DNA from: a virus
Direction: 5' to 3' (one strand)
Virus record (IMG/VR): IMGVR_UViG_3300008114_000270
Coordinates: 1-22,602 of that record
DNA length: 22,602 nt
Shown here piece after piece: positions 6,867 to 17,309 of the stretch (positions are counted from its first letter, which is position 1; each line of letters opens with the position of its first letter). A program made the position numbers and the translations under genes. Below the pieces are notes generated by a model, which had not been told where the DNA came from, did not search any database, and saw only the letters and a list, made by a program, of their open reading frames with translations.

Positions 6867-6890
6867 AAAAAAGCCCCCTTAATGGAGGCT
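6867..6890 (-). terminator. Intrinsic terminator of the late operon
   Basis: On the minus strand AGCCTCC (6884-6890) pairs with GGGGGCT (6872-6878) with one T-G pair and a 5-nt loop, followed by six T (6867-6872). It is about 70 bp downstream of the last late gene and in front of the early promoter, so it closes the structural and lysis operon. Confidence 0.88.
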
Positions 6891-6894
6891 CAGG

Positions 6895-6960
6895 CCATAG
6901 ATACTATCTATGGTGGGGCGTTGATCCGGTAACTGTTCTTATGGTAAGTATCCAGATACT
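6895..6960. repeat. Two inverted repeats between late operon and terminator
   Basis: CCATAGAT (6895-6902) and ATCTATGG (6906-6913) form a perfect 8-bp inverted repeat with a 3-nt loop, and AGTATC (6947-6952) with GATACT (6955-6960) is a second with a 2-nt loop that touches the stop codon of the last late gene. They share ATACTAT-like sequence. They may be 3'-end mRNA hairpins protecting late transcripts, or protein sites. Confidence 0.55.
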
Positions 6961-7246
6961 ATTTTCCTACCTTGAAACGTCTAAGAATGAACTTAACTAC
7001 TCTCTTTGCAATGACTTTCCAAAGACCGCCTTTAGAGTCAACTTTCACCTCCACTCCTTCGGCAGTCTTGGAAATTTCAATATCTATATTTTTACCATCT
7101 AATTTAAACTCTTTGTTAACCTCATCTTTGATGTATGAGATGTCAAGGTTTTTAGTGTCAACATCCAGCTTGATGTTGGTGCCATCCTTTTCAAGGTTGA
7201 TGTCTACATTATCAGTGTCAATTTTGACTGTTTTTTTCTTTGCCAT
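6959..7246 (-). CDS. Three-repeat small protein with cationic amphipathic tail, lysis-linked
   Basis: A longer frame reaches 7372, but that would lie inside the endolysin gene; the ATG at 7246, 7 bp after the endolysin stop, is the likely start (95 residues). Residues 13-72 form three tandem 20-residue repeats starting NVDI, NLDI and NIDI and ending in VDTK, LDGK and VDSK; each looks like two beta strands with acidic and basic residues alternating. Residues 73-95 (GGLWKVIAKRVVKFILRRF then KVGK) are a strongly cationic amphipathic helix resembling membrane-disrupting peptides. It is the last gene of the late operon. A role in the final outer-membrane step of lysis, like known cationic disruptins, is my inference; a DNA-binding or virion role remains possible. 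No database family is recalled. Confidence 0.78.
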   Translation of the reverse strand: MAKKKTVKIDTDNVDINLEKDGTNIKLDVDTKNLDISYIKDEVNKEFKLDGKNIDIEISKTAEGVEVKVDSKGGLWKVIAKRVVKFILRRFKVGK

Positions 7247-7253
7247 AACTATT

Positions 7254-7628
7254 TTATTTTGCCCATCTTGCTTTATGTCCTCTGTGGTCAAAATGTGTCC
7301 ACGTGCTGTATGTACCCAATCCACCCTCTTCCATCTTACCAGCTGCAATAAGTTTCTCAATGACAGCGGCAACCTCTTTTGGAGTCATGCCGGCAATCTT
7401 AAAGTCAGCTGCCTCACCTGTGATGTGGCGTGAACTTTTTACTCCACCAACTTTTGCATTGTGTTCTGGTGATCTGTAACCACTTGTAATCTTAATTGGT
7501 TTCTTTACCTCATCTCTAAGGACCTGCAGATTGTTTGCCAGTGCCTGGATGTTTCTCAATACAGTTTCACTCAAAGCAAATCCATGCTTGTTGAACTCTG
7601 ATAAGTTAAAGTTAGTTGTCAGTTGCAT
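7254..7628 (-). CDS. M15 peptidase endolysin
   Basis: A 124-residue protein with the full active site of M15-type (VanY/peptidase_M15_3) zinc peptidases. The SxHxxGxAxD motif is SRHITGEAAD at 66-75, giving zinc ligands His68 and Asp75, and the WxHxD motif is WTHFD at 110-114, giving the third ligand His112. ITSGYRSPEHNAKVGG at 47-62 is the typical preceding stretch. These enzymes cut the peptide part of peptidoglycan, usually as L,D- or D,D-peptidases. It has no signal peptide, so it should need a holin to reach the cell wall. Its position in the last part of the late operon beside a holin-like membrane protein fits a lysis cassette. Confidence 0.94.
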   Translation of the reverse strand: MQLTTNFNLSEFNKHGFALSETVLRNIQALANNLQVLRDEVKKPIKITSGYRSPEHNAKVGGVKSSRHITGEAADFKIAGMTPKEVAAVIEKLIAAGKMEEGGLGTYSTWTHFDHRGHKARWAK

Positions 7629-7630
7629 AA

Positions 7631-7882
7631 TTATTTTTTTGCTAATATACGCTTTTTAGTATCAATCACAGCAACAGTGTCATTCTTTATGATCGGAGCT
7701 TGTGGCTGTTTCTCTTCAATAGGTTTTCTGTTATAATACTCATTCTTATCTAAGCAGTTATACAAGCGAGCTTTAACATCCTGCACCTCGAAGTGAGTAT
7801 AAGCCAACCACATGGCAAGTACTCCCACCGCTCCCTGCTTTTTAATTATTTCTATGAATTGAGTGATAGGTAACATTTTCAT
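7631..7882 (-). CDS. Holin-like single-span membrane protein
   Basis: An 83-residue protein with one hydrophobic span at about 16-30 (QGAVGVLAMWLAYTHFE), a short amphipathic N-terminus (ITQFIEIIKK) and a charged C-terminal tail of about 50 residues. The Lys/Arg-rich end (DTKKRILAKK) faces one side. It is 2 bp from the endolysin gene, and single-span proteins with this arrangement next to endolysin are commonly annotated as holins or spanin-like lysis proteins in Bacteroidota phages. Holin function is inferred from position and topology; a Cys at 43 (YNCLDK) could allow dimer formation. ATGA overlap with the 7879-8115 gene supports coupling. Confidence 0.62.
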   Translation of the reverse strand: MKMLPITQFIEIIKKQGAVGVLAMWLAYTHFEVQDVKARLYNCLDKNEYYNRKPIEEKQPQAPIIKNDTVAVIDTKKRILAKK

Positions 7883-12576: not shown

Positions 12577-14315
12577 TAGTTTATTTTTAACAATGTTACT
12601 TTACCATTTGCCCAATCAAGCGGCTCTTTATAGGTGATTGTTGCTGCACTCTTCTCATCAATCCACTCTATTCTGAGCACCTCACACCATTTATTGTTGG
12701 TAAAAATATAATTATTGTTCTGCAAAGATACAAATTGAGATTGTCTTAATCTTATTCGAGCCTCTTCGTGTATAATATAATCATTATTTGCTATGAAATT
12801 AATGTAATGAAACTCATCCCATAGGGCTGTTGCACTGTATCTGGTATCATAGAATTGAGTGTCAAGGCTTACCTTATTTCCACCTGCAGGTGCCTGCTTA
12901 ACATATAAACTTTTTGTAATACCAAAGTATTCATTAGATACCTTTAACACGTTTATTCTATCCAATACCTGAGCAACATAATTTGTTGCATTGCCAATGC
13001 CAATAGATGCAAATGTGGATGTAACAGAATCTGCCAGGGCAAAGAATGGAATTGCCAACAGCTCAATGAAACTCAACTTTCCTTTTGGAGCTCCCATTGC
13101 AAAGTTAATTCTAACCTCATTCAATCCTTTTATTGTAACAAGGTCTGCATTGGTTGTTGGAACGTTATTCTCAGTTGAGTACTCCGCTTGATGCCTTGCA
13201 AACATCTTACCATCCACAGTGTGAGCATCAGTGTAATCTAATGTGTAAGCTATGTAATATCTCTTCCATGTCTCTTCTGTATTGTAAGTGAATTGCTCAT
13301 CCCTTTCCGGTTGCATGTTTAATGCAGGATCAATCTGTAAGGATGTCTGATTATCAAGCCAGTCTCTTCTCTCAATTCTCACAGTCTTATTTACAGGATC
13401 AATGAATAACTTTGCATTGAATTGCTTTAACACCTCATCAAGCCATGCTCCAAAGGTTGGAGTAGTGTCAGATGCAGAGCATGTTGGTTTATTCTTTGGA
13501 TCTGCTAAGTCATTAGATATACCATCAAAGAAACTATCATTATCCTCATTCAATGGAACCGGCAAAGTAAACCAACCTGGTTGAACGTTGAATATTGTAT
13601 CAGATGGAAGTGGAGTATATCCTAAAAATTGACATCCTTTGTTGAATATCTCTGAGTAATACAACCCTTTGAAGTACTTTATTCGAGGGAATAATATAGG
13701 GAATAATTGACTAAGTAATGATATAATGGCAGCCAATACACTTATCCAGTAAATGATTTGAATTACCCACTTTAACGCACCCTGCAATGGAGTGGTTGTG
13801 GTTTCTGCAAGTCTATCTGCAAAGTCTTTGATTGATTGTACTAATTGAATAGTCATCATAAATATTGAGACACTCAATTGAAATGCCATCATAGCAGCGT
13901 CATCCCTTACAACTATATATCCTAATCTTTTAGTGTCAAAATAGGTTGGATTATCTTTGATCATCAAATCAAATGAAGTACCTCGAGCTTTCTCCCAGAA
14001 TGTGTCTGAGCCATTACGCCTCTTTAACTTGACCTCAATCTCATGCTGTCTGACAATAGGCTTAGCACTTGAATCTGACAAGTCAATGTAGTAATCAAGT
14101 GTAATGTTACCATCCATCTCAACAGTGTAAGGAATGCCCAGGAACAAACCATTATTTTGTATCCATGTTTTGATATATTGATTTGCCTCTCTTGGTAGGA
14201 TAAGAGTATCCACATTCAAACTCAATACATCTGGATTGCCTGTGAAGTCACTCACTACCCCAATTGAATCCCTGTTACGTGGACTTACCTCAATGCCATT
14301 TAATAAATGTCTCAT
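12576..14315 (-). CDS. Baseplate hub / tail-associated protein with membrane-like segments
   Basis: A 579-residue protein coded directly after the tape measure, where distal tail and hub proteins sit in siphoviruses. The first 120 residues look like a distal-tail type beta domain (DVLSLNVDTLILPREANQYIKTWI). Two hydrophobic stretches follow: about 140-160 (AAMMAFQLSVSIFMMTIQLV) and about 181-209 (LKWVIQIIYWISVLAAIISL onward), long enough to span a membrane. The C-terminal half (about 290-579) has the alternating strands of tail-hub proteins, with a DPVNKTVRIERRDWL portion. The gene has ATGA overlap with the tape measure gene. The membrane-like part may be buried in the tip and inserted into the host on DNA ejection; this is inference. 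Confidence 0.78.
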   Translation of the reverse strand: MRHLLNGIEVSPRNRDSIGVVSDFTGNPDVLSLNVDTLILPREANQYIKTWIQNNGLFLGIPYTVEMDGNITLDYYIDLSDSSAKPIVRQHEIEVKLKRRNGSDTFWEKARGTSFDLMIKDNPTYFDTKRLGYIVVRDDAAMMAFQLSVSIFMMTIQLVQSIKDFADRLAETTTTPLQGALKWVIQIIYWISVLAAIISLLSQLFPILFPRIKYFKGLYYSEIFNKGCQFLGYTPLPSDTIFNVQPGWFTLPVPLNEDNDSFFDGISNDLADPKNKPTCSASDTTPTFGAWLDEVLKQFNAKLFIDPVNKTVRIERRDWLDNQTSLQIDPALNMQPERDEQFTYNTEETWKRYYIAYTLDYTDAHTVDGKMFARHQAEYSTENNVPTTNADLVTIKGLNEVRINFAMGAPKGKLSFIELLAIPFFALADSVTSTFASIGIGNATNYVAQVLDRINVLKVSNEYFGITKSLYVKQAPAGGNKVSLDTQFYDTRYSATALWDEFHYINFIANNDYIIHEEARIRLRQSQFVSLQNNNYIFTNNKWCEVLRIEWIDEKSAATITYKEPLDWANGKVTLLKIN

Positions 14316-16525
14316 GATCTAACTTTGAATCTGTTGTATATTGTCGTATTACCTTTGCGAGTGGACTGTACTATCTCCATTGCTGACTGTGTTATCTCTC
14401 CCAGTTGGATGTTGGTTTCTGGTTTGTGTTTGATAACCTCTTTTAAGTCTCTCAACTCATTAACCATAATAGCCAAATCCAATGAGCTATGAGCCACATC
14501 CTGACCAACTAACCGCCCATTTTGATACTCCATTGCAAGCCTTGTTAACTGCTCATTTGTTAAGTTACCTATCTGATCATTCAATGACTTAGGAATAACT
14601 CTCTCATGTGGATGTAACACAGCGTGAAAGCCTCCTTTACCATCTACTCCTCCACCTCTTCCAGTGTCCTCTGTTCCATCGTAGAACATTGGCAGTGAAC
14701 TAATGAAAGCCTGTAATAAACTTGCATCCTTAATAGTATTCATTAGGGCTGTTTTAGGATCCTTTGCAGCGTGACTTGCATAGGTTTGGTATATGGTATT
14801 AGCCAGCTCCATCCTTTGCTGTCTCTTTTGCTCTCTCTCTTTTTTCCTGTTGGACTCTGCAATGATACGCTCTTGCTCAGCTAATGATTGTTGTGCATTG
14901 ATGTTACCATTGGCTGCTAAATCTCGATAGAAATCTGCTTGCTTTTGAGCCGCTGCAATCTCTTTATCTATCAATGCAATTCTCTCATCAGATTGTTTCT
15001 TTAAAAAGTCAGTAGCCTTTTGTGCGAACTCCTGTGTAGTTTTTAATTTTTCTTCATTCTTTTTTCTATCACTTTCCTTTTGCTCTTGATCTGCCTTATC
15101 CTCCGCTGCTTTGATTTGTTTGTTTCTATTTTTATAAGCTAATGCAGTGAGTTTATCATACTCCTCCTGAGTAATTTTCTTCTCATCTAATTGGTTCTGC
15201 AATGCCCACAACTCATCCTGGTAAGCATCTTCAATTAGTTTCTTATCCTTTGCAAGTCCATCCTTCATTAAGGCTGTCTCTGCATCTCTTAATTTCTTTT
15301 GAGCATCATAAATTCTTTGATCATCTGCAATCATTTGAGCAACCAATTTAGCCTCTGCCTCTGCATCAATAGCATCCCATTTGTCATTGATTTCTTTTTG
15401 CTTTGCTCTAATACTCTCTTGATATTGAGCCTGTAATTGTGCTATCTTAGCCGCCTTCTCTTTGTCATCTTTGAGCTCAGTGTTTGCATCCTCTAATTTA
15501 CGCTTGTAATCAAGAGCCAACGCATCTAAATCTTTTTTCCTGCTCTCCTCTCTGATTGCCATTTTCTCATCCTCTAATCTGCGTTGGATATCAATCTCAC
15601 TTTGAGCAGTATCATTGGCATTATTTATTGCGTCTTTTGATGCATTTTTATTACCTTCTTTTTGGCTAAGTATCAATCCATCTCGCTCTCCTTTCATTTG
15701 TGTAACAACTAACTTTTGTGCATCAATTGCCTTTTTACTTTCCTCATTTATTGACTTTGGATCAAATAATAAACCAGATAAAAAGTCAGCCCCCTGAGCA
15801 GTCATCTTACTAATTTCTTTATTGATATTTGTTGTTGCAATTTTACCAATCCCCAATGCCTCACTAACTAAGTTGGCAGTCTCAAGTACAGCATCAATTG
15901 GTAAGGCCATGGCTCTAAACACAAGCATGTAACCTTCCAACTGCATTCTAAAAAACATTTCAGCATATCCCTTATTCCTTACAGCCGCATCATATTCTAA
16001 CTTAGCAGTCATTTCAAGTGACTTCAATTTGTTTTCTGCAAGTTTAATATCTGTATTAAGTTGATTAATCTTATATTGAATAATCTCCTTTTCACTTTTG
16101 CCCTGTAGTTTTAAAGTGTTTTCTTGAGCGTTAAGCATCTCACCTTTTAACTTATTGGCTGCAATATCTTTATCCAGTTGTTGATTGTATTTCTTTTGCT
16201 CTGCAGATACACCACCAACAGCCGCCTTAATATCATCCCAATAAGCAACCACAGTACCCAATGCGACAACCAAAAGTCCTATCCCAGTTGCTGCAATACC
16301 ACCCCTAATACCACTCAATGCAGCCTTAGCAGATTTGCCCATGTTTGTGAATCCTGTACTTCCCGCTGCAACAGCTGTATTTTGAGCATTTTGAGCAGCT
16401 GTAAATTGAAAAGTTTTAGCAATTGCCGCTGTGAATCCTGCCCTAATCTCAGTAAGCATGTCACCTAATCCACCCAATGTCTTTAATGCATCACCTAATC
16501 CGGCAAGAGCCTGAAGTTTTGCCAT
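14312..16525 (-). CDS. Tape measure protein, C-terminal part
   Basis: A 737-residue frame from ATG 16525, beginning MAKLQALAGLGDALKTLGGL. A longer frame reaches 16579, but its first 18 residues do not look like this family. Residues about 76-95 are a hydrophobic span (GIAATGIGLLVVALGTVVAY), as in most tape measure proteins, followed by long charged helices and coiled coils (about 105-590) and the typical C-terminal FYDGTEDTG and GKGGFHAVLHPHERVIP stretch at 614-645. This protein would set tail length and pass into the host membrane. The first part of the usual protein lies in another frame, 16491-17309; the two overlap by 35 bp. The join is therefore a split gene, a +1 shift or a real deletion (see findings). 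Confidence 0.9.
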   Translation of the reverse strand: MAKLQALAGLGDALKTLGGLGDMLTEIRAGFTAAIAKTFQFTAAQNAQNTAVAAGSTGFTNMGKSAKAALSGIRGGIAATGIGLLVVALGTVVAYWDDIKAAVGGVSAEQKKYNQQLDKDIAANKLKGEMLNAQENTLKLQGKSEKEIIQYKINQLNTDIKLAENKLKSLEMTAKLEYDAAVRNKGYAEMFFRMQLEGYMLVFRAMALPIDAVLETANLVSEALGIGKIATTNINKEISKMTAQGADFLSGLLFDPKSINEESKKAIDAQKLVVTQMKGERDGLILSQKEGNKNASKDAINNANDTAQSEIDIQRRLEDEKMAIREESRKKDLDALALDYKRKLEDANTELKDDKEKAAKIAQLQAQYQESIRAKQKEINDKWDAIDAEAEAKLVAQMIADDQRIYDAQKKLRDAETALMKDGLAKDKKLIEDAYQDELWALQNQLDEKKITQEEYDKLTALAYKNRNKQIKAAEDKADQEQKESDRKKNEEKLKTTQEFAQKATDFLKKQSDERIALIDKEIAAAQKQADFYRDLAANGNINAQQSLAEQERIIAESNRKKEREQKRQQRMELANTIYQTYASHAAKDPKTALMNTIKDASLLQAFISSLPMFYDGTEDTGRGGGVDGKGGFHAVLHPHERVIPKSLNDQIGNLTNEQLTRLAMEYQNGRLVGQDVAHSSLDLAIMVNELRDLKEVIKHKPETNIQLGEITQSAMEIVQSTRKGNTTIYNRFKVRS

Positions 16526-17309
16526 GCACACCAATTTGCCCTGCCTTGGCAACAGAACCAGCAAAGTTTTCCATTGCACTACCTGCAGTGGCTTTTACCA
16601 CAGCATTAGTATCTGCAATCTGGTCCTTTAATGCACCGGCTTGCTGTGTCATTTGTTGGAATCTTGGATCAGATGAGTCCATGTTCTGCAATTGCTGAGT
16701 TAACTCCCTTAATTGTAGCTTTAAACTCTTAGTCGCACCCTCATAATTACCTACATTTCTCTGATGTTGCCCAACAGTTGCATCAACTTTTTTGAGTTGT
16801 GCATCCAAACGTGTTACAGTATCAAGTAATTCTTTGCCCTCTGCTGTGTTTTCTTGGTTGGTAACTGCCAAATCTTTGTAAGCCTTGCGGGCTTTGTTTA
16901 ATTCTGCACTCAATTTACTGTAGGCACTTGCCTCACTTGATGCCAACTTAGCCGCTTTCTCCTGTTCCTTTGCTACCCTTGCAAGTTCCTGAGCCTGCAT
17001 CTTTTGGAGCTTGACAATTTCCTGCTCTGCCTTTATCTTTTGTTGGTCTGCCTGGGCTTTTAACTTCTCAATCTGTATTGATTGCTGCATTAACTTATTT
17101 GCCTGCTCTGTTGCCGCTCCAAATTGCTTTAATTGTGCAGTTGATGCCTGAGTATTGGCAGCAAGTTCACCTTTCAAACCTGTTGCAGTCGCTTTAAGTT
17201 CAGCCTGTAACTCATTAAACACTGCAAGTGTCTTAGTTGCTGAATCCCTAACTCCTTTGAACAGGTCTTCCTGCTCAAATAAATCACTGCTACTTATCTT
17301 TTTTGCCAT
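16491..17309 (-). CDS. Tape measure protein, N-terminal part
   Basis: A 272-residue protein, coiled-coil rich (Ala, Lys, Gln and Glu; e.g. EQANKLMQQSIQIEKLKAQA and AQELARVAKEQEKAAKLASS), starting MAKKISSSDLFEQEDLFKGV. The section about 145-250 (VGQHQRNVGNYEGATKSLKL through RFQQMTQQAGALKDQIADTN) is the common N-terminal motif of Bacteroidota-type tape measure proteins. It ends with FAGSVAKAGQIGV and then a short tail HGKTSGSCRIR that looks out of frame. The natural continuation, KLQALAGLGDALKTL, is in the +1 frame and begins 35 bp before this stop. It overlaps the 17290-17874 gene by 20 bp. Confidence 0.85.
   Translation of the reverse strand: MAKKISSSDLFEQEDLFKGVRDSATKTLAVFNELQAELKATATGLKGELAANTQASTAQLKQFGAATEQANKLMQQSIQIEKLKAQADQQKIKAEQEIVKLQKMQAQELARVAKEQEKAAKLASSEASAYSKLSAELNKARKAYKDLAVTNQENTAEGKELLDTVTRLDAQLKKVDATVGQHQRNVGNYEGATKSLKLQLRELTQQLQNMDSSDPRFQQMTQQAGALKDQIADTNAVVKATAGSAMENFAGSVAKAGQIGVHGKTSGSCRIR

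Follow-up and report, generated by a model that had tools for sequence, protein, structure and literature searches.

The window analyzed here is a 22,602-nucleotide stretch of viral DNA (IMG/VR record IMGVR_UViG_3300008114_000270, positions 1 to 22,602) carrying a lysis cassette in which a gene for a conserved 83-aa protein is followed by the gene for an M15 peptidase endolysin and then by a gene for a small protein, here termed P0001 (Table 1). P0001 starts 7 nt past the endolysin stop, and the terminator-like site behind it is probably the end of the late operon. The coordinates and length of P0001, its place after the M15 endolysin, and a C-terminal tail of 23 residues with 8 Lys/Arg had been given in an earlier note on this DNA, and all proved accurate.

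Table 1. Features of the lysis cassette and of P0001 in the window
Feature	Position	Strand	Remarks
P0001, 95 aa, last gene of the lysis cassette	6959..7246	-	ATG at 7246, stop ends at 6959; 75 or more distinct viral loci have a homologue
M15 (VanY-like) peptidase endolysin, without signal peptide	7254..7628	-	PHROG 894, endolysin (E = 1.7e-38); Pfam Peptidase_M15_3 (E = 9.8e-22)
83-aa conserved protein, putative holin	7631..7882	-	one weakly hydrophobic segment; directly upstream of the hydrolase in related loci
Terminator-like hairpin and T-run	6871..6891	-	about 70 nt past P0001
Repeat 1, NVDINLEKDGTNIKLDVDTK	7151..7210	-	residues 13-32; predicted β-hairpin
Repeat 2, NLDISYIKDEVNKEFKLDGK	7091..7150	-	residues 33-52; predicted mostly helix 36-49
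Repeat 3, NIDIEISKTAEGVEVKVDSK	7031..7090	-	residues 53-72; predicted β-hairpin
Cationic tail, GGLWKVIAKRVVKFILRRFKVGK	6962..7030	-	predicted amphipathic helix, residues 76-90

The 83-aa protein has a Kyte-Doolittle peak of 1.22 (19-residue window) with no clear transmembrane (TM) segment, and a family match was sought without success. A resemblance to BhlA-type holins was considered but found no support in Pfam, as the BhlA/UviB family PF10960 was not matched at E ≤ 10 by any of five records. The cassette thus lacks a convincing holin, for which the 83-aa gene is a weak candidate. P0001 itself was considered as a holin of a known type and rejected by the TM criterion, with no 19-residue window exceeding a Kyte-Doolittle value of 1.6. 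Elsewhere in the window, the tape measure gene (14312-17309, minus strand) runs in two different reading frames, one at 16491-17309 and the other at 14312-16579. The two parts share one frame in a relative (L329), so a frameshift or a sequencing error in the window is likely.

The three repeats of P0001 share 7-8 of 20 identities in every pair, and their summed BLOSUM score of 115 was equaled by none of 500 plain shuffles and by none of 500 shuffles preserving the hydrophobic/polar pattern; self-comparison of 61 homologues scores highest at offsets of 20 and 40 residues. The three exact-length repeats described in the earlier note are thus significant against 1000 shuffles in all, and the exact length is lost in the homologue from locus L183, where repeat 1 is two residues short. 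Because two AlphaFold models (pLDDT 61 and 65) assign strands to the first and third repeats and a helix at residues 36-49 to the second, the body is more aptly seen as a small α/β domain, net acidic and with a repeat in its sequence, than as three equal modules or the "repeat domain" of that note; at this low to moderate model confidence the repeats do not appear structurally alike. Both models also place a helix at about residues 76-90, which may belong to the fold rather than being a free peptide. A 40-residue "hairpin plus helix" duplication, with the tail as a second copy of helix 36-49, was rejected, as the helix halves were no closer to each other than shuffles (16%).

The tail has a charge of +8 in the window and of +7 or +8 in 61/61 distinct homologues, the rest of the protein ranging from 0 to -5, and the hydrophobic or cationic class at each of residues 75-91 is kept in 97-100% of these sequences. 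In an 18-residue scan, it was the most cationic amphipathic stretch among the 29 predicted proteins of the window, its best 18 residues having a charge of +7 and a hydrophobic moment of 0.49, and the amphipathic cationic helix of a disruptin is thus present by prediction. The moment is not unusual for the composition, being equaled or exceeded by 13% of shuffled tails, and it is therefore conservation in the homologues that carries the argument, as the stronger evidence for the tail.

The P0001 family comprises 61 distinct sequences that are 59-99% identical and evolve under purifying selection, with dN/dS of about 0.11 for the whole protein and 0.15 for the tail. Pattern searches derived from P0001 found homologues in uncultured viral contigs only; the sole genome-contig match (L089, Acidobacteria) was discarded as a chance match within an oxidoreductase-like ORF. 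A tblastn search of 50,697 phage records with P0001 and its divergent relative from L183 gave no match at E ≤ 1, and that collection thus offers no known member from a cultured phage. No family for P0001 was found in PHROG, Pfam, or NCBIfam, where the weak matches (best E 0.0038, most above 0.01) were inconsistent between homologues; a sequence search of solved structures gave nothing below E 0.17, and Foldseek against the PDB and viral models nothing at E ≤ 0.001. By these searches, P0001 represents an undescribed family of Flavobacterium-type phages.

The linkage of P0001 to lysis genes was followed through 75 distinct loci, the count once repeats of the same locus had been removed. The gene lies behind a peptidoglycan hydrolase in 75/75 of the distinct loci that reach far enough, with a gap of 1-11 nt or with an HNH gene inserted between the two. 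It is present in 67/67 distinct loci whose sequence continues for at least 1000 nt past the 83-aa gene and in 8 shorter ones, and the 10 loci without it all end too early. The 83-aa gene directly precedes the hydrolase in related loci, and whereas the neighbors on either side vary, the trio stays in every complete locus. The placement behind the endolysin proposed in the earlier note therefore extends to the homologues, always behind an M15 or a YkuD-like hydrolase; homologues far from lysis genes, which the note had counted as evidence against its reading, were looked for, and none was found in the 75 loci.

Several further genes were observed around the cassette in related loci. An HNH-endonuclease-like gene lies between the M15 endolysin and a retained P0001 in four distinct loci (L013:4159-4701, L017, L020, and L027). 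In L183, the locus that diverges most, the end of the 83-aa gene is overlapped by the gene for a protein of 55 aa that has a C-terminal TM segment (L183:2854-3021), and the M15 enzyme that follows is a different one. Many relatives, among them L331 (15236-15382), L055, L059, and L039, encode a few hundred nt behind P0001 a protein of 48 aa that has two hydrophobic segments and is possibly an extra lysis or membrane protein; it is absent from the window.

The M15 endolysin gives way in about 40% of distinct loci to an unrelated YkuD-like protein of 182-195 aa, which matches PHROG 33083 (endolysin, best E 1.2e-8) and, weakly, YkuD and Tlde1. The hydrolase class changes 8 times on the P0001 tree, and although this tree is built from few columns and has many weak forks, at least 6 of the changes are forced by well supported branches; P0001 copies that are 96% identical adjoin an M15 enzyme in one case and a YkuD-like enzyme in the other. 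Since the hydrolase class is swapped while P0001 is kept, P0001 is unlikely to be the partner of one specific enzyme, and its task is likely general to lysis. The YkuD/Tlde1-like lysins carry an HG...GGWSEGC or GAWSAGC motif (L053:2802-3350, L063:4447-4995, L007:3279-3866, and similar) and in many relatives are flanked by the same two genes as the M15 endolysin; their homologues in crAss-like phages are mostly annotated as hypothetical.

The observation of the earlier note that no spanin pair is visible holds for the 22.6-kb fragment. A six-frame lipobox scan of the window found no credible lipoprotein ORF (its only hit, of 37 aa, runs antisense to the lysis genes), and no spanin candidate lies on the coding strand of the fragment. 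The same scan of four longer relatives gave scattered small candidates, the best a 41-aa lipoprotein ORF in L325, far from the lysis genes. A disruptin-bearing phage is expected to lack a spanin; here the coding strand of the window shows no candidate and one relative has one lipoprotein ORF, but the window is a fragment, the longer contigs may be incomplete, and a distant spanin gene is possible. P0001 as a spanin was rejected: every aligned homologue begins with MAKK, and the protein has neither lipobox nor TM segment, without which it cannot bridge the periplasm as spanins do.

The position behind the lysin is occupied differently in other phages. The lipobox scan flags gp18 of Flavobacterium phage Fpv5 (L090:10529-11113, annotated as hypothetical), which lies directly behind the Fpv5 lysozyme and combines a lipobox (IIGC) with a C-terminal TM segment in a classic u-spanin layout; Fpv5 also carries a remote homologue of a 378-aa protein of the window. 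In several crAss-like phages with a YkuD-type lysin, the genes behind the lysin encode an N-terminal TM segment, a C-terminal TM segment, or a lipobox and are spanin-like. Another product annotated as hypothetical, tant8-1 gp061 (L091:10360-11007), lies directly behind the hydrolase, has an N-terminal TM segment, and looks like a spanin. Near relatives keep separate multi-TM holin candidates besides the gene behind the lysin, and Nonlabens phages with a related M15 endolysin have an annotated holin behind it and lack a P0001-like protein. By analogy, P0001 sits in the slot of an outer membrane disruptor; the argument is positional and falls short of proof.

Taken together, these data suggest a reading to which we give an even chance, namely that P0001 is a disruptin-like outer membrane disruptor that replaces the spanin and would stay in the cytoplasm until holin triggering. 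Beyond a lysis gene with a conserved cationic helix, we infer the following steps. P0001 would be expressed late, as the last gene of the lysis operon, and stored in the cytoplasm, where the acidic body (-3) could balance and dampen the +8 helix. Opening of the inner membrane by the holin, probably the 83-aa gene product, would then release the hydrolase and P0001 into the periplasm, where the cationic helix could bind the anionic outer membrane and disrupt it, so that the outer membrane would break after or along with wall degradation. Membrane activity and outer membrane targeting are part of what is inferred, and so would be the shielding or delivery of the peptide by a repeat domain that the earlier note put forward. 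Somewhat short of an even chance is the wider proposal of a widespread disruptor class in Flavobacterium-type phages, in which a folded acidic domain with a cationic amphipathic C-terminal helix has replaced the u-spanin in its slot and serves unrelated hydrolases.

We consider it unlikely that P0001 is instead a small chaperone-like or regulatory lysis protein, whose final helix would have a structural role, packed against the sheet, rather than act on membranes. VIA-align matched 77-88 of the 95 residues to numerous class I type III secretion chaperones as well as to YbjN, with InvB the best (Z 8.3, r.m.s. deviation 2.8), and the helix lies within the predicted fold in both models; however, Z values of 7-8 are background by the tool's own note, the Foldseek searches were empty at their threshold, and the models are of low to moderate confidence. 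Moreover, the nearly identical copies beside M15 and YkuD enzymes speak against a hydrolase-specific partner, and the constant charge of the tail would then need another reason.

A role at the inner membrane, with P0001 acting as a holin-like, depolarizing, or antiholin protein through its helix on the cytoplasmic face and the 83-aa protein doing something else, seems to us about as unlikely. Cationic amphipathic helices bind anionic inner leaflets, P0001 is synthesized in the cytoplasm and has no export signal, and as a holin the 83-aa protein is a weak candidate, with neither a clear TM segment nor a family. P0001 has, however, no TM segment, unlike known holins, relatives have spanin-like genes in its slot, which suggests the outer membrane as the target, and near relatives keep the separate multi-TM holin candidates described above. 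Least probable is a linked late protein with no part in lysis (virion, packaging, or host takeover) that merely closes the late operon, as its place before the terminator-like site and tail genes not far upstream might suggest, since the 83-aa gene, the hydrolase, and P0001 occur together in every complete locus while their neighbors vary, and neither inserts nor enzyme swaps have separated the three.

Disruption of the outer membrane, the reading preferred here, would bear on a wider problem. A spanin goes unrecognized in about 13% of surveyed phages, such as those of Bacteroides and Croceibacter, and the literature leaves open how they breach the outer membrane (PMC6139136, PMC12819732). The P0001 family offers a concrete, conserved candidate for this step in Bacteroidota phages, with natural controls in the relatives that have a u-spanin in the same slot and in the repeated hydrolase swaps, and with a tail short enough to be assayed directly as a peptide.

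Among known systems, the disruptin of Escherichia phage phiKT is the natural comparison. Its gp28 (Holt et al. 2022, cited in PMC12819732) is the only proven disruptin, cationic and described as an amphipathic helix peptide; disruptins are described as diverse (PMC12819732), and phiKT has no identifiable spanin (PMC6139136, Table 10). Like P0001, gp28 has a cationic amphipathic helix and is encoded directly behind the endolysin, but it is a protein of 56 aa, whereas P0001 has 95 aa with an acidic α/β body, and in a common 18-residue scan the tail of P0001 exceeds gp28 in both positive charge and amphipathicity. No alignment between them was obtained at E ≤ 100, and P0001 is, as judged from this comparison, not homologous to gp28; given the diversity of disruptins, this rejects homology and leaves the analogy untouched. 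The disruptin-like lysis role put forward in the earlier note is thus supported in part, by the link to lysis, which survived the changes of hydrolase class, by the lack of a visible spanin in the window, and by the spanin-like slot in relatives. In its mechanism, P0001 would represent a variation on the disruptin theme, and it belongs neither to the gp28 homologues nor to the spanins. With the unimolecular spanins (T1 gp11 type, with Fpv5 gp18 as the local counterpart) it shares the slot behind the lysin and the proposed task, but these have a lipobox and a TM segment and P0001 has neither. The membrane-active endolysins of phiKMV-like phages have a charged amphipathic C-terminal region like the P0001 tail, and its helix has been proposed as their route through the outer membrane (PMC6139136, section 15); there the helix is part of the hydrolase, whereas in P0001 it is carried by a separate protein that is kept while the hydrolases are exchanged.
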